IMG/VR virus record: IMGVR_UViG_3300042945_000967
Span: 1 to 38,341 of that record
From: a virus
Strand: one strand, 5' to 3'
Length of the DNA stretch: 38,341 nt
Shown here piece by piece: positions 26,008 through 33,513 of the stretch. Below the pieces are notes generated by a model, which was not told where the DNA came from, did no database searches, and saw nothing but the letters and a program-made list of their open reading frames with translations. The position numbers and the translations under genes are program-made. Position 1 is the stretch's first letter; each line of letters opens with the position of its first letter.

Positions 26008-27198
26008 ATGGGAAGCCAAGTTTCTATTTTCGATGCGATTGATACAGCGGCCGCAAACCCTGTGATGAAAGCCATACAAACGCGGCTTGAGGCCGTGTCG
26101 GCCGATGGCATAGACGCGATGGTGAATGAAATCAACGCCATGCGCGAACTCATCCACAGGTTCAGCCCATTCAAAGACGAACCCGTAGACTTTGTAAAGT
26201 GGGTTCCGTCCAAAGCTGTTGTCGCCAACGAATACAACCCCAACAGCGTGGCACCTCCGGAAATGAAGCTGCTGGAGCATTCTATCAACCAAGACGGATA
26301 CACGCAACCCATCGTAACGTGGCCGCACGACAATGTGATCGAAGTTATTGATGGCTTTCACCGTCATCGCGTTGGGAAGGAAAGCCCGGACGTGTCCAAG
26401 CGCATCAAGGGATACCTGCCTACTGTCATCATCAAAAGCGACCGCAGCGACAAGAACGACCGCATGGCTGCAACAATCCGGCACAACAGGGCCAGGGGCA
26501 AGCACGCCGTAAATTCGATGTCCGACATCGTGGTGGAGCTGAAGCGCAGGAACTGGACGGACGAGCGCATTTGCCGTGAGCTTGGCATGGACAAAGACGA
26601 GGTGCTGCGCCTATGCCAGATTACCGGCCTTGCGGAACTATTCAGTGACCAACAGTTCAGCCGATCTTGGGATGTTGAAGGTGCCGTTAGCGAAGCCGAC
26701 TTCACGGAGCTAACGGACAACATCGATGAATACGGTGATGAGACCAGTGAATTCCGAACGGTCAACACTTCTGACGAGGGGCGCATCTTCCACACCTATG
26801 ACAAGTGGGAGTGCCACAAGGCTGGGTTCTATTCCACGTCATTTGAAGGTATGACGAAACAACAATGCCTTGAGGCTTATAGGGACTTCCTTGCAGACAT
26901 TCCGCGATTTGACGCTGCCCTTAAAGGCGTTATCACCGAATGGAAGCATTCGTGCGAGCACTACCTGACGAACAAAGCCATGAACCGAATTGCATGGCTA
27001 GGACAAGCTGCGATGTGCTACGCAACAGGGGTGCCAGCCGAGTTCCGTGGCGGCTTTTCAATGCTCGCGCAAGAACAGCAGCACGCGGCCGATGCAAAGG
27101 CCCTTGAATACCTGAACAAGTGGATGGAGGCCAACGGCCGCGAAGCCCTTACGATGGAGGAGGCATACAGCGGCGAACGTCAATCCCAGATTTACTAA
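26008..27198 (+). CDS. ParB-like protein (IbrB family)
   Basis: 396 residues from ATG 26008. The ParB/sulfiredoxin-like domain occupies about 60-165: VKWVPSKAVVANEYNPNSVA, LLEHSINQDGYTQPIVTW and IDGFHRHRVGKE, the GFHRH loop being the nucleotide-binding part. A DNA-binding helical region follows (SDIVVELKRRNWTDERICRE). The combination of this opening with a PAPS-reductase-fold partner immediately downstream is that of IbrB, known from E. coli ECOR-9 as a regulator of Ig-binding genes with IbrA. Lower G+C than its neighbours (52% in 26281-26340). Function in phages is not established. Confidence 0.75.
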   Translation: MGSQVSIFDAIDTAAANPVMKAIQTRLEAVSADGIDAMVNEINAMRELIHRFSPFKDEPVDFVKWVPSKAVVANEYNPNSVAPPEMKLLEHSINQDGYTQPIVTWPHDNVIEVIDGFHRHRVGKESPDVSKRIKGYLPTVIIKSDRSDKNDRMAATIRHNRARGKHAVNSMSDIVVELKRRNWTDERICRELGMDKDEVLRLCQITGLAELFSDQQFSRSWDVEGAVSEADFTELTDNIDEYGDETSEFRTVNTSDEGRIFHTYDKWECHKAGFYSTSFEGMTKQQCLEAYRDFLADIPRFDAALKGVITEWKHSCEHYLTNKAMNRIAWLGQAAMCYATGVPAEFRGGFSMLAQEQQHAADAKALEYLNKWMEANGREALTMEEAYSGERQSQIY

Positions 27199-28412
27199 TG
27201 GGCAAGGTGTACCAAGATGGCGATGTGCTAACGGCATCTCGCGAGCGCATCAGAAAGACGTTCGACAGTGTTGAGCGCGTCTATCTTGCGTTCAGCGGCG
27301 GCAAGGATAGTTCCGTCATGTTTCACCTTGTGATGGACGAAGCAATCAAGCGCGGCGTCAAAGTCGGCGTCATGTATATTGACTTCGAGGCGCAATACAC
27401 GGAGACAGAGAAGCACGTAGCTGAGATGTTCGCCATGTATGCGGACCACATTGAGCAGCACTGGATCTGTATTCCAATGCTCCTGCGCAATGCTGTCACC
27501 AATTACGAGCCACGGTGGACGTGCTGGGATGAGGAAAAGCGCGATGTATGGATCCGACAAAAGCCCGAAGGATGCAAGGGTGTTGATGACTATCCATTCG
27601 CGTTGCCGGGCATGGAATTCGAGGAGTTCATCGTGCTGTTCGGGCAATGGTACGGGCAAGGCAAAAGGACGGCAGGGTTTATCGGCATCCGAGCCCAGGA
27701 AAGCCTTCACCGCTATTGCGCCATCGCCACATGGGAAAAGCGCAACATGACACTGAACGGATGGCGATGGACAACGAAGATCGTGGATGACGTGTACAAC
27801 GTGTACCCGATATACGATTGGCTCACAGAAGACATTTGGCGTTATCACTCTAAGCATCATGACAGGCCGCACAATGCCATCTATGACAGGATGCAACAAG
27901 CTGGCGTTCCTTTGTCTAGCCAACGCCTATGCCAGCCGTTCGGAGATGACCAGCGGCGCGGCCTCTGGCTGTACCACATACTTGAGCCTCAGACATGGTT
28001 CAAACTTGTGGCGCGCGTGAACGGCGCAAATAGTGGCGCGCTCTATGTCGAGGAGAACGGCAACGTCATGGGGTACCACAAGATCACTCTTCCGGTTGGA
28101 CACACATGGAAGAGCTTCTGCAACCTGCTATTGCAGACTATGCCGCAGAAGACTCGAGACCACTACGTATACAGGTTCAAGAAGTTCATTTACGGATGGC
28201 ATAGCAGGGGCTATACGTCAATACCAGAGGAAGCCCCACCCGAACTAGAGGCAAAGTGTTGGGCGCCATCATGGAGGCGGATGTGCAAGGTGCTTCTGCG
28301 AAATGACTATTGGTGCAAGGGGCTTGGTCAGACTCAGCCAAAGAGCGATGCGTACCAGCAGTTCAAGCAAATGAAGGCGGCAAAGAAGGCGAAAGCAAAG
28401 CAGGCGCAATGA
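27198..28412 (+). CDS. PAPS-reductase-fold protein (IbrA family, DUF3440-like)
   Basis: 404 residues. The ATG overlaps the ParB-like stop as TAATG. The adenylate-binding PP-loop SGGKDSS lies at 33-39. It has KVGVMYIDFEAQYTETEKHV (sugar/sulphate region), EPRWTCWDEEKRDVWI and GFIGIRAQESLHRY, the pattern of the IbrA/DUF3440 group, and a basic C-terminus rich in Lys and Ala. It may transfer sulphur or adenylate to a nucleic acid, as DndC does in phosphorothioation, but the classical CysH end motif is not seen. The partner gene suggests a two-protein system. Confidence 0.8.
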   Translation: MGKVYQDGDVLTASRERIRKTFDSVERVYLAFSGGKDSSVMFHLVMDEAIKRGVKVGVMYIDFEAQYTETEKHVAEMFAMYADHIEQHWICIPMLLRNAVTNYEPRWTCWDEEKRDVWIRQKPEGCKGVDDYPFALPGMEFEEFIVLFGQWYGQGKRTAGFIGIRAQESLHRYCAIATWEKRNMTLNGWRWTTKIVDDVYNVYPIYDWLTEDIWRYHSKHHDRPHNAIYDRMQQAGVPLSSQRLCQPFGDDQRRGLWLYHILEPQTWFKLVARVNGANSGALYVEENGNVMGYHKITLPVGHTWKSFCNLLLQTMPQKTRDHYVYRFKKFIYGWHSRGYTSIPEEAPPELEAKCWAPSWRRMCKVLLRNDYWCKGLGQTQPKSDAYQQFKQMKAAKKAKAKQAQ

Positions 28413-28975
28413 AATACCCAAGCGTTACACGCATCCTTGACGCCACAATGCCGCCGGAAAAAAGAGCCGCGCTAAACGCGTGGAAGTTGCGCGTTGGCGA
28501 AGAAGAGGCCGAGCGCATCCGGCAGGCAGCAATTGAGCGAGGCAACCGGATTGACGCTAACGTTCTGAGCATCAAGAATGGGGGGCCGTGCGACGATGGC
28601 CGTATATCCAAATACCTTGATGGCTATCAGTTTGCCGCTCACGAGATGAACGTCCATAGTGATGTACACGGGTACTGCGGGCGATTTGATGCGGTGCTTC
28701 GGATGAATGATCGGAACATCCTGGTCGACTGGAAGGGAAGCAACAAGTGGAAACGGAAGAAATACTTGGCAGACTATCGGCTTCAGCTTGGCGCTTACTT
28801 TGGCGCGCTCGTGGAGATGGGATGGAACATCGATTGCGCCAAGGTCGTTCTGTTCGTTGATGGCATGGACAAGCCACAGGTGTTTTGGCAGCAACCCGAA
28901 GAGCTATGGGCCGCACACGCCGAGTTCGTTGAGCGCGTCAGGCAATACAATCAAATACAATCCCCTGCACAATGA
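28409..28975 (+). CDS. PD-(D/E)XK exonuclease (MGME1-like)
   Basis: 188 residues. YPSVTRILDATMPPEKRAAL at the start, then GRFDAVLRMNDRNILVDWKG (91-110) with catalytic Asp94, Asp107 and Lys109, and YRLQLGAYFGALVEMGW holding the Gln of the nuclease fold. It closely follows the layout of the MGME1-type phage exonucleases. It probably trims DNA ends in recombination or degrades host DNA. ATGA overlaps with both neighbours. Confidence 0.8.
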   Translation: MKYPSVTRILDATMPPEKRAALNAWKLRVGEEEAERIRQAAIERGNRIDANVLSIKNGGPCDDGRISKYLDGYQFAAHEMNVHSDVHGYCGRFDAVLRMNDRNILVDWKGSNKWKRKKYLADYRLQLGAYFGALVEMGWNIDCAKVVLFVDGMDKPQVFWQQPEELWAAHAEFVERVRQYNQIQSPAQ

Positions 28976-29142
28976 CCACCCGCCAACGCTTCGGCAGCGA
29001 CCTGATCGCCACGGGCATGACGCACGACAGCATGGGCCACCCGATCGACCCTGCCGCCATCTACGACTGCCGTGAGGACGGTCATGTTAGCCGATGCGGG
29101 CTCGACATTAAACGCAAGGGCCGCAAAAACGCGAGGGCATGA
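28972..29142 (+). CDS. Small unknown protein
   Basis: 56 residues from ATG 28972, coupled by ATGA on both sides. MTTRQRFGSDLIATGMTHDS then CREDGHVSRCGLDIKRKGRK: two Cys and a basic end. No family recognised. Translation is supported by the double overlap. Confidence 0.5.
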   Translation: MTTRQRFGSDLIATGMTHDSMGHPIDPAAIYDCREDGHVSRCGLDIKRKGRKNARA

Positions 29143-29729
29143 AAGTGCTGGTGGCCTGTGAGAGTTCCGGCACGGTGCGCGATGCGTTCCGAGCCCTTGG
29201 ACACAACGCCGTGAGCTGCGACCTGCTGCCCACCGATAGGCCGGGGCCGCATTACCAAGGCGACGTGCGTGACATCTTGGGCGATGGATGGGATCTGATG
29301 ATCGGGCATCCGCCATGCACATACCTGAGTAAGGCTGGCGCGAGGTGGTGGAAGGAGCCCGGCAGGGATCAGTTGGCGGCGCAGGCTGCGGAGTTTGTTC
29401 TGACGCTATGGAACGCCCCGATCGAAAAGATTGCCATCGAGAACCCGCGCGGGCAACTGAACACGCTATGGCGTACTCCTGACCAAACAATACAGCCGCA
29501 CTGGTTTGGCGACCCATACTCTAAGGCGACGTGTCTGTGGCTGAAAAACCTACCTCCTCTGATGGCTACGGCGCCGTGTGCCGCATGGGTGCCGTTGGTC
29601 AGGTCGAACACGGGAGGTGCAAGGCGCGGGCATCGAAGCCATCAAGGGGTAGCCAAAAACTGGAAGGAAGCGAGCAAAACATTCCAAGGCATCGCCGATG
29701 CGATGGCCCAGCAATGGGGCACACTATGA
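29139..29729 (+). CDS. Compact cytosine-methyltransferase-like protein
   Basis: 196 residues. VLVACESSGTVRDAFRALGH is a SAM motif I-like segment (3-22). LMIGHPPCTYLSKAG (53-67) contains the Pro-Pro-Cys of C5 methyltransferases (Cys60 candidate nucleophile), and IAIENPRGQLN (98-108) resembles the ENV motif. The target recognition domain and C-terminal motifs expected in full-length enzymes (about 300 residues or more) are missing. This short form is common in phages and often listed as DNA cytosine methyltransferase; activity is not shown. It may modify phage DNA or be a SAM-binding pseudo-enzyme. Confidence 0.7.
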   Translation: MKVLVACESSGTVRDAFRALGHNAVSCDLLPTDRPGPHYQGDVRDILGDGWDLMIGHPPCTYLSKAGARWWKEPGRDQLAAQAAEFVLTLWNAPIEKIAIENPRGQLNTLWRTPDQTIQPHWFGDPYSKATCLWLKNLPPLMATAPCAAWVPLVRSNTGGARRGHRSHQGVAKNWKEASKTFQGIADAMAQQWGTL

Positions 29730-31072
29730 ACACGCAGCCCATCCCATCCGCCCCCGAAGTCGAGCAGGCCGTGCTGGGCGCCCTGCTGATCGACCGCTCT
29801 CCGTGGCTCCTGGTGCCCGACATCCTCACCACGCCGGACGTGTTCCACCTCGACGACCACCGCCGCCTCTACACCGTGGGCCTCGACCTGTTCAGCGCCG
29901 GCAAGCCCATTGACCTCATCACCGTCATCCACGGGCTACGGGAACGGGCATGGCTGACCGACACGCTCACGCCCCACTACCTCAGCACCTTGGTCGCCAA
30001 GGTCGCATCCACCGCCAATGTGGAGTACCACTGCCGCATCCTGCTCGAACTGCACATCGCCCGCAAGCTGATCGGCCTGGGCAGCGACCTCACGACGCGC
30101 CTGTACGATCCCCGCACCGACGCCTTCGAGGCGCTCGACCGGGCGAGCACGGCCCTAACGGACCTCTACGGGATGGCCCTGCCGTCCACGATGGGCACCG
30201 CCGCCGATGAGCTGATCGGCCTGACGGATGGCAGCCCGGCCAAGTACTACACGTTCGGCATCCCAGAGCTGGACAGGATGGCCGTCCTGCAATGCGGCCT
30301 GCCCCATGTGTTCGCAGGCCGCCCCGGCATCGGCAAGTCCATCTTCGCCCTTGAGGTGTGCTGGCACCTGACGCAGGTCGGGCGGGTGCTGCTCTTCAGC
30401 CCGGAGATGACCAAGCGCCAGATCACCGCCCGCATCGTGGCACGCGAGGCAGGCGTGCCGTACTCCACCATCCTGCGGGGCAGCATGACCGAACAGGAGA
30501 TGGCGCTGGTGGTTGAGCACGGGCACCGCATCGCAGACCGACTCGCCCGCCTTGTGGTCGATCCGACCGGGGGCGTGACGCCTGAGCAGGTCCGCATACG
30601 CACGGAGCGTGAGCTGAAGAAGGGCGGGCTCGTGGCCTTCGCCGTGGACCACCTCCACAAGATGAAGACGGGCGACAAGCGCAGCGACCGTGATGACTTT
30701 GCCCGCGTGTCGCAGTGCATGAACGGGCTGACGGAGGCCGCCAAGAACACCGGCCTGCCTGCCCTTGTGATGGCGCAGCTCAACAGGGGGGTCGAGACGC
30801 GGGCCGACAAGCGCCCGAACATGGCCGACCTGAGAAGCAGCGGGGAGATCGAGCAGGATGCCGCCGTGGTGGGGCTGCTGTATCGGGAGGGGTACTACCA
30901 GCCGCAGCCACCAGCGTCGGACACGTTGGAGGTGAACATCGCCAAGAACAGGGACGGGGCCGTGGGCGTGGCAAGCACCACGATCGAGCCGCCGTATAGC
31001 CGCATCGGTGGCGTCCTGGCACTGCCTTCGATGCGGGCCGTGAGGACAGGAACAGACGATGCGCCGTTCTAA
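29726..31072 (+). CDS. dnaB: DnaB-type replicative helicase
   Basis: 448 residues from ATG 29726. The N-terminal domain (APEVEQAVLGALLIDRS and the two-helix region to about 105) is the primase-contacting part of DnaB. The RecA-like domain has Walker A GRPGIGKS at about 198-205, VLLFSPEMTKRQITARIVAR, Walker B AVDHLHKM (about 306-313), and the C-terminal DLRSSGEIEQDAAVVGLLYR with the arginine finger region. It is slightly short of full-length DnaB. Its C-terminus GTDDAPF is SSB-tail-like. It would be loaded by the phage initiator. Last gene of the early operon, followed by hairpins. Confidence 0.92.
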   Translation: MNTQPIPSAPEVEQAVLGALLIDRSPWLLVPDILTTPDVFHLDDHRRLYTVGLDLFSAGKPIDLITVIHGLRERAWLTDTLTPHYLSTLVAKVASTANVEYHCRILLELHIARKLIGLGSDLTTRLYDPRTDAFEALDRASTALTDLYGMALPSTMGTAADELIGLTDGSPAKYYTFGIPELDRMAVLQCGLPHVFAGRPGIGKSIFALEVCWHLTQVGRVLLFSPEMTKRQITARIVAREAGVPYSTILRGSMTEQEMALVVEHGHRIADRLARLVVDPTGGVTPEQVRIRTERELKKGGLVAFAVDHLHKMKTGDKRSDRDDFARVSQCMNGLTEAAKNTGLPALVMAQLNRGVETRADKRPNMADLRSSGEIEQDAAVVGLLYREGYYQPQPPASDTLEVNIAKNRDGAVGVASTTIEPPYSRIGGVLALPSMRAVRTGTDDAPF

Positions 31073-31460: not shown

Positions 31461-31606
31461 GGGAATTGGCTTTGAAGTCGTTGCTGCTGTGCCTTCTGCC
31501 CCTTGGCGGCCGCCCCGGTGACGGGGTAGCTGTGCTGTGCGCAGCCCATCGCCAGCAGCACGAATGTGGCGGCCATAAGGACGGCACCAATGATGCGGGT
31601 CTTCAT
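31457..31606 (-). CDS. Small lipoprotein
   Basis: 49 residues. [20 protein letters not shown] then GCAQHSYPVTG: a signal peptide with LAMGC, a lipobox placing a lipid on Cys22. The mature part is only 28 residues, mostly polar. ATGA overlaps on both sides. It might serve in lysis (outer-membrane spanin-like) or superinfection exclusion. It is short for a spanin and has no partner gene in another frame. Confidence 0.6.
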   Translation of the reverse strand: MKTRIIGAVLMAATFVLLAMGCAQHSYPVTGAAAKGQKAQQQRLQSQFP

Positions 31607-33513
31607 GATGCGAACAGTTCAAGTTTGGTGGCCGTGTAGCGGAGGGCACCACCTTGCCCCGCCCATGTGCCAAGCCTGCTCACGGTCATCGGCGAAGGTA
31701 GCACAATGGTGGTGACGCCGCTAGCCGTTGTCACCGTGCAGCGCTGGCCGTTGGCGTACCAGTTGCCGTCCGGGTACACACCGAGGTAGTTCAGGCTCAC
31801 CTGCCCGGCTGATACAGCAAGGGCCGAATACCCGCCCGCTGCGGTGTTGTTCTTGAAGCCCGTGAGCACCACACGCCCAACCGCCACATCGGCGATGTCC
31901 TCCGAGTAGGTGTTGCTGCTGACCGCTACGTTGCTGCGCGTGAACAGGGCCGTACCCGAAGGCGGAGGCGTGGGAGTTGGTGTGGGCGTAGGCGTGGGGG
32001 TGGGGGTCGGAGTAGGCGTGGGTGTTGGCGTAGGGGTAGGGGTAGGGGTAGGCGTAGGGGTAGGCGTAGGCGTAGGTGTGGGAGTAGGGGCAGGCGTGGG
32101 AGTGCCGGCGGCGCCTGTGTAGCTGAAGGCAGGTGTGCCAGCCGCATGGCTGATGGCCGGTGCCCATGCCGTGCCGTTCCACCGCTGGAAGCCGAGGCGT
32201 TTTGGGTTGCCTACGACGCCAGCCAGCGGGGCCACCTCCTGCCTGTCGATCTGCACGATGCGGCGGCTGCCGTCGCGCTTGTAGAACACCTCGTTCTTAT
32301 CGAAGGGGAAGCCCGGCGTGGCGTACACGTTGCCGCCCACCTCGTGGATCAGATTGGCCGTGCTGTTCCACTCGCTCAGGATGCCCTTCACGAGTTGCGG
32401 CTGGATGCCGCCGTCGTCATGGCGCGGGTCGAGCACCAGCAGGCTCTCGGTCTTAATGCCAGCCGTGGCGTAGGCCAGCAGCCCGAAGTCGAGGGCCACG
32501 CGCCCCCGCAGGTCGCCAAGGATGGTGCCGTTCCACGGGCCCCGGCTCTCACTCGCCACGCCCGTCTCGACCTTGATGCAGCCCGATACCTTCAGCGATA
32601 CCCCGCTTTCGCGCCCGTAGCCCTTGCGGGCGAGGAACACGCACGGCACATCGTCCGTCTCGATGTCGCCGATGTGCCACATATTGTCCGTGCTGCCCAA
32701 GAAGATGAACGTGGCGACCGTGCCGTTCATCACCGTCACCTTCTGCACATCGCCGGGCGTGCCACGGGTGGCAAGGAACGCCGCGTCCACCTTGCTGCAA
32801 TAGATATTGCCGAACTTGCTGGCGCTCCCCGGATCCCAAGCGGCCACGCCCACGATCAGGCGGCCCGGCACGAAGTAGGGGTCAGCGTTGCCCCGGATGT
32901 GGATGCGGTCGATCCCGCACAGCTCCTGATACGCGCCCACCGTGCCCTCGTTGCTCCACGAGGTCGTCTTGAACGCAGCGTAGACCTTGTTGGCCTGTGG
33001 TCCGAGCACGTCGATGGTAGCGGTGAACGTATCGTCCACGATCCACTTGTCGGGGCGCATCACCAACTCAGTCCCGCCAGCACCACGCGGCTGCACGGAG
33101 TTGGGGAACACGTTGCCCGGCCCGTTGCCAGTCACGCTGTTGTAGCTCAGGGTCATGGAGCCGTTGATCTGGAACTGCCCACGTTCGATGACGATGGGGG
33201 CGCGGCTGATGTTGGGGCCGGATGGTCCGAGGCCGGACGTTCCCCAGATGACATCTTCGTAAGAGGCGACGAGCGGCGTCATGCGGCCGATCTTGTCATC
33301 GGCCCAGCCGAGCGCCTTGTACCGGGCGTAGGCCTGCGCCCACTTGGTCTGCCAGCCTGCGATGTCCTTGATCTCACGGTAGATGCCTTCGGCGTCCTGC
33401 TGGAGGCCGTACATCTCCACCAGCGGGTAGAAGTCTCGGAACGGTATCATGTGTTGGGTTTTGGTTCGTTTGATGATGGCCCGCGTCAGTTCGATGCGTC
33501 GGGCCTTTTTCAT
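31603..33513 (-). CDS. Tail spike with beta-helix core and Pro-Thr linker
   Basis: 636 residues. The N-terminal ~70 residues ([20 protein letters not shown], then [20 protein letters not shown]) look like an attachment part. From about 100-450 the chain has repeated short strands with Gly, Asn and Asp turns ([27 protein letters not shown]), like a right-handed beta-helix with possible depolymerase activity. Residues ~471-517 are an unbroken run of Thr-Pro repeats, followed by a C-terminal beta domain that ends [14 protein letters not shown]. The linker probably separates the spike core from a receptor-binding or trimerising head. Catalytic residues cannot be named. Confidence 0.65.
31971..32100. 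repeat. Minisatellite encoding the Thr-Pro linker
   Basis: Plus-strand units of the form GG(N)GT(N), six bases each, repeat more than 20 times. In the coding direction they read ACN CCN. Such tracts change length by slippage, so the linker length may differ among isolates. Plus-strand frames here give artefactual Gly-Val repeats. Confidence 0.85.

Follow-up and report, generated by a model that had tools for sequence, protein, structure and literature searches.

A predicted helical third module accompanies IbrB and IbrA in a phage replication operon and in related viral loci

Introduction

A replication operon within a 38,341-nucleotide stretch of viral DNA (IMG/VR record IMGVR_UViG_3300042945_000967, hereafter the window) carries an IbrB/IbrA-like gene pair and raises the question of what such a pair does for a virus. 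In many phages and plasmids the annotation of IbrAB genes reads regulator or PAPS reductase, with no activity attached, and to our knowledge no IbrAB has a known activity, complex or modified product. The presence of IbrA/IbrB pairs in phages and viruses has been reported previously (PMC5874904, PMC4490671, PMC8813620). The only functional report found describes gene activation by IbrAB (Sandt et al. 2002, as cited in PMC6008420). A first-pass annotation of the window, made from the letters alone, recognized the pair and proposed that it acts on DNA or RNA chemistry or counters host defence. The locus was compared with related loci in viruses, plasmids and cellular genomes.

Results

Organization of the locus

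Two genes on the plus strand make up the pair. The first (P0001, 26008..27198, 396 amino acids) encodes IbrB fused to a C-terminal module designated here as X, and the second (P0002, 27198..28412, 404 amino acids) encodes IbrA, with a PAPS_reductase-type ATP-pyrophosphatase domain and a DUF3440 region. A TAATG stop/start overlap at 27196..27200 (+) couples both frames and places IbrA in immediate linkage with IbrB, and the IbrA stop codon in turn overlaps the ATG of an exonuclease gene (ATGA, 28409-28412). Coordinates, motifs (VKWVPSKAVVANEYNPNSVA, GFHRH and SGGKDSS) and the TAATG overlap were re-read in the sequence and are exactly as the first-pass annotation had given them. The flanking genes that it had named were borne out by profile matches: a VRR-NUC nuclease upstream (PF08774, E 4.6e-10) and the exonuclease downstream (phrog_298, E 2e-29). 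As a clue to function these flanks proved uninformative, the neighbours being different around related pairs. SF2 helicase, exonuclease, VRR-NUC, SSB, primase, DnaB and terminase genes, as named by reading of cluster representatives, vary by subtype and were rejected as diagnostic neighbours. Elsewhere in the window, an open reading frame at 29139-29729 matched phrog_757, 'DNA methyltransferase' (E 4e-61), and no Pfam family, and that annotation may be unreliable. A minus-strand gene at 31603-33513 encodes a probable tail or appendage protein, in which a long run of Pro-Thr repeats (PTPTPTPT...) forms a low-complexity linker.

The IbrB and IbrA proteins

The IbrB core (26122..26691, +; residues 39-228) consists of a ParB/Srx-like domain followed by a putative HTH-like region, the latter assigned from ParB homology. 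The residues of two motifs of this core, D115-G-F-H-R119 and T156-x-R-H-N-R-A-R-G-x-H, show 96% conservation or more across 94 sequences. Residues 42-223 share 55-58% identity with E. coli YbdM and the IbrB of phage PhiR5_2, and homology to E. coli IbrB/YbdM extends over the whole core of about 180 residues. The protein belongs to phrog_2159 (E 2e-70), with a match confined to residues 43-241. It did not reach the curated cut-off for ParB_N (19.2 versus 26.3 bits) or that of the ParB partition protein profile TIGR00180 (17.6 versus 58.45). Its 396 residues do not fit the size of a single-module IbrB (about 170-220 amino acids); it is twice the length of IbrB owing to the extra C-terminal module, which the first-pass annotation had overlooked.

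IbrA is about 40% identical over its full length to E. coli K-12 YbdN and to PhiR5_2 IbrA, so that identities of 40-58% to YbdM/YbdN and to phage IbrB/IbrA uphold the proposed identity of the pair. The protein belongs to phrog_2302 (E 1e-81) and scored above the gathering thresholds for both PF01507 (52.6 bits, E 7e-14; cut-off 22.5) and PF11922, DUF3440 (127.4 bits, E 6.8e-37; cut-off 25). These matches, that of IbrB to phrog_2159 and the low dN/dS given below put the pair well outside chance expectation. The PP-loop S-G-G-K-D-S (27294..27311, +; residues 33-38) has S33, G35, K36, D37 and S38 in 68 of 68 IbrA sequences, and R165, E168, S169 and R172 of an R-x-x-E-S-x-x-R motif (27690..27713, +; R165-R172) are likewise found in all 68. 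The DUF3440 region (27903..28349, +, in profile segments 27903-28247 and 28263-28349) includes an N369-D370-x-x-C373 tail, in which N369 and D370 are present in 68/68 sequences. The sole near-invariant cysteine is C373 (28314-28316, +), found in 66/68; other cysteines vary, and no conserved Fe-S cysteine set was found in the alignment of the 68 sequences.

The nearest solved folds to IbrA are those of CysH (6vpu, E 1.6e-8) and CysD (1zun, E 4e-7), with FAD synthase also among the closest. Profile and fold comparison place this protein in the fold common to CysH, CysD and DndC, in agreement with the PAPS-reductase fold claimed earlier. The family cut-offs themselves were missed by a wide margin, for DndC (TIGR03183, 22.8 versus 290.4 bits), CysH (TIGR00434, 17.0 versus 165.1 bits) and CysD (23.6 versus 396.6 bits), and a PADLOC search with IbrA gave weak matches only (DndC, 24.6 bits). 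The protein has the canonical SGGKDS PP-loop and lacks the CysH catalytic tail E-C-G-L-H. IbrA further differs from CysH and CysD in an extra C-terminal half and in its setting, which is not one of sulphate assimilation. It shares with DndC/SspD the PP-loop PAPS-reductase-like domain, but has DUF3440, and a Pfam scan of 10 ORFs around the pair turned up no Dnd/Ssp partner such as DndD, DndE or a desulphurase.

Module X

Module X (26770..27195, +) spans about residues 255-396 of the fusion protein (~140 residues) and is predicted to form an all-helical domain. Its AlphaFold2 model is confident (pLDDT 91.8, pTM 0.86). Foldseek returned no match to this model in the PDB (best E 2.2), although a negative search of this kind does not establish that the fold is new. 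One match was obtained in BFVD (E 3.5e-4), to an unnamed 116-residue protein; its length equals that of the X gene of Pseudoalteromonas phage XCL1123, and it is probably X itself. The X of the window matched nothing in Pfam or PHROG. Other X members gave isolated weak matches in family libraries including PHROG, NCBIfam and PADLOC (DarA_C in 1/77, DruK, CIS13 and two PHROGs), which were taken as chance. The single weak matches to DruK (E 3e-4) and DarA_C (E 0.0065), from the X at L313:6995-7378 and one member of group A4, are to defence-related names and are probably chance.

The family has the core W-E ... W-x-x-S-x-E ... N-x-x-A-W-x-G, situated directly before IbrA or a copy of its tail, and the X of the window fits this description. 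Residues invariant in group A1 are H, E (of W-E), W, S-x-E, N and W-x-G. The E. coli IbrB lacks any counterpart of X. A stand-alone X gene lies between IbrB and IbrA in Microcystis phage Mwe-JY13 and Pseudomonas phage Amjad_SA, and 3' of IbrB in Mycobacterium phage Gaia and in XCL1123. The literature searched describes neither X nor the five-gene form. The occurrence of IbrAB in phages is already known; the new element is X, together with the defined module of several parts to which it belongs.

Linkage and gene order

Viral contig scans seeded with X and with IbrA yielded 277 distinct loci, 242 of them with X; these counts rest on the best 80 matches per scan, and rare solitary X genes are possible among more distant relatives beyond those matches. 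Within this sample both IbrA and IbrB were adjacent to X in all but 7 of the 242 loci, and each of the seven exceptions is cut by a contig end. Among the matches listed, the gene directly after X was either IbrA (180/180) or a tail mini-gene (60/60), with no exception; three X genes run into a contig end. About ten gene orders were seen among these matches. The commonest is the form found in the window, fused IbrB and X followed by IbrA (103 distinct loci), then IbrB-X-IbrA (49), IbrA-cupin+IbrB-X-tail with cupin and IbrB fused (30), X-IbrA-IbrB (22) and IbrA-cupin-IbrB-X-tail (12), and there are several rarer ones. The constant adjacency of X can also stem from translational coupling.

The tail gene resembles the end of DUF3440 (Y...W..RCY..GIPDEVP..APS...L.ND..L..LGF) and lacks the tail cysteine of IbrA. 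It occurs in about 60 type II loci, always directly after X (for example L009:8949-9146 and L008:9547-9855). In type II loci an ectoine-synthase-like cupin (PF06339; E about 1e-33 to 1e-35) either forms one protein with IbrB or is encoded beside it (L009:7311-8207, L008:8332-8721 and related loci), and most loci with a separate tail gene have the cupin so joined to IbrB or next to it.

Among the closest known systems, three contain IbrA and IbrB. The IbrA/IbrB genes of E. coli ECOR-9 and the YbdN/YbdM genes of K-12 are likewise adjacent and overlapping and encode homologous proteins, but their order is IbrA-IbrB and X is absent, whereas in the window a fused IbrB-X precedes IbrA. Mwe-JY13 has the order IbrB, X, IbrA, with IbrA 67% and X 47% identical to those of the window; its X is a gene of its own, annotated as a second ParB/sulfiredoxin. 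The type II operon of Gaia (gp103-107) comprises IbrA, IbrB, X (gp106) and an IbrA-tail copy (gp107). It differs in that IbrB is fused to the cupin and the separate X is only about 25% identical to that of the window, which has neither the cupin nor a separate tail gene. In Fusobacterium phage phiFN37 (L011:10745-13054), a second ParB-like gene lies by a queuine tRNA-ribosyltransferase and a queuosine precursor transporter, a neighbourhood that recalls 7-deazaguanine DNA modification.

Distribution, selection and history

X is essentially confined to phages. Of 144 viral loci taken in order of their similarity to IbrA queries that lack X, 101 had X (some contigs counted twice). Two different X queries found no X in 72,556 plasmids, and about 85,000 species genomes gave X in five contigs only, all from MAGs. 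Six isolate phage records have X, each with adjacent IbrA and IbrB, and IbrA and IbrB occur in 216 and 218 records, respectively, of the phage collection. IbrA homologues without X are present in 605 plasmid records, mostly of Klebsiella and Escherichia. Among 370 genomes of one class, IbrA was found in the seed genome only.

IbrA, IbrB and X are under purifying selection (dN/dS about 0.04-0.10), with median values for closely related pairs of 0.037, 0.038 and 0.099, respectively. Distances of X track those of IbrA, the one comparison of this kind made (Mantel r 0.72 overall and 0.82 in type I, reached by none of the shuffles), which shows co-inheritance to which adjacency contributes. In an IbrA tree built with a quick method, both halves defined by midpoint rooting contain X, types I and II form clusters, and no fewer than 8 state changes are needed. 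In several X-less phages nested among X-bearing ones, IbrA and IbrB adjoin each other and no hidden X or remnant of it was detected; X is an accessory to a working core.

The nearest relatives of the locus have an IbrA up to about 80% identical and few other genes in common with the window, mostly at 50% identity or less, which shows movement of the cassette between phages. A separate origin had been suggested earlier from local base composition. The figures were right (51.7% G+C at 26281-26340 versus 66.7% at 30301-30360), and GC3 is 0.63-0.67 over 26008-28975 versus 0.80 for VRR-NUC and 0.89 for DnaB. The lower-G+C block takes in the exonuclease as well as the pair. Base composition gives less support to a separate origin than do the relatives.

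Discussion

A tentative preference, somewhat short of an even chance, is given to the reading in which IbrA and IbrB work as an ATP-dependent complex for modification or transfer, X being a phage-specific subunit seated on IbrA. Judged from the sequences, X forms a third module that can be encoded separately, is invariably linked to IbrAB and lies directly before IbrA or a tail copy; IbrA has an intact ATP-pyrophosphatase site and DUF3440, and IbrB a ParB/Srx-like core. The linkage and fixed placement of X, the tracking of X and IbrA divergence and the purifying selection argue for this reading, as do the invariant PP-loop and R-x-x-E-S-x-x-R residues, the near-invariant C373 and the fold resembling CysH, CysD and FAD synthase. 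IbrA would convert ATP to AMP and PPi, activating a target or group, and C373 may serve as nucleophile or sulphur carrier. IbrB, through a putative NTP site and its HTH-like part, would direct the complex to a nucleic-acid target, probably the DNA of phage or host, or RNA. X may dock on the IbrA tail, since the one constant neighbour of X is this tail, be it part of IbrA or encoded apart, and would make targeting or control phage-specific. Phage genes would in the end be altered in expression or protection through a covalent change. The sulphur or adenylate transfer suggested in the first-pass annotation would be allowed by the IbrA sequence, and the type II cupin hints at small-molecule chemistry or sensing. 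A weak hint comes from E. coli, in which loss of CitR raises ybdNM (ybdN +5.5 log2 in the citR mutant, cysD/N/C/J/I about +2.4-2.8 log2; PMC9068703); these data fit a sulphur drain and are confounded by many other changes. Against the complex, X is dispensable to the core, being absent from the E. coli pair, from plasmid pairs and from many phage pairs, and C373 alone is no proof of sulphur chemistry.

A purely regulatory role would accord with the activation of prophage eib genes by ECOR-9 IbrAB (Sandt et al. 2002, as cited in PMC6008420). IbrB would then be an NTP-dependent ParB-type promoter binder, as its ParB core and HTH-like part might suggest, with IbrA modulating it and X coupling it to the phage late programme, and nucleic acid would not be covalently modified. 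Such a co-activator is rather doubtful here: it leaves the invariant ATP-pyrophosphatase site, the conserved C-terminal cysteine and the linked cupin unexplained, and related pairs have no conserved target neighbourhood. The varied contexts of a horizontally moving accessory cassette, its enrichment on mobile elements and the faster evolution of X than of IbrA and IbrB would also suit a part in phage-host or phage-phage conflict, as counter-defence, superinfection exclusion or a toxin-antitoxin-like system, and a guilt-by-association listing includes Listeria lmo1309/lmo1310 as a putative TA pair (PMC7020466). This is unlikely, given that the neighbour survey, in which small genes were left unannotated, found no recurrent defence partner, and that PADLOC gave, apart from the weak IbrA match, one stray DruK match for X in five members.

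The two remaining alternatives turn on sulphur. A minimal phosphorothioation-like system, in which IbrA would carry sulphur in the manner of DndC/SspD, IbrB would be a ParB/Srx partner that binds or nicks DNA and host IscS would be the donor, is recommended by the weak DndC profile matches, by C373 and by the membership of DndB and nicking enzymes among ParB/Srx proteins (PMC12839542, PMC11662687). It seems improbable in view of the distance from the DndC cut-off, the lack of conservation of other IbrA cysteines and the operon ORFs scanned, which include no DndD, DndE or desulphurase. That IbrA is an auxiliary enzyme boosting host sulphur metabolism can be set aside almost entirely: many phages annotate it as a PAPS reductase, but the scores far under the CysH and CysD cut-offs, the PP-loop and tail features and the IbrB partner speak against it, and an ordinary sulphate-assimilation enzyme, the identity that would have undone the first-pass proposal, is ruled out by those scores.

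Returning to the modification complex, a stronger form of it can be put forward as a possibility that is itself doubtful: X would be an undescribed phage-restricted fold and a dedicated IbrA subunit, and IbrAB-X, with cupin and tail in type II, would be no regulator pair but a multi-subunit system of a new class that modifies nucleic acid in an ATP-dependent manner. The X family is in any case of considerable size, and its confidently predicted structure matched nothing in the PDB and, in BFVD, only what is probably X itself. Contact between X and the IbrA tail, and residues K36 and C373, offer testable points. With a strictly linked third component in most of the viral IbrAB sampled, and a second subtype that adds a cupin and a detached IbrA tail, a vague annotation becomes a defined multi-part machine.
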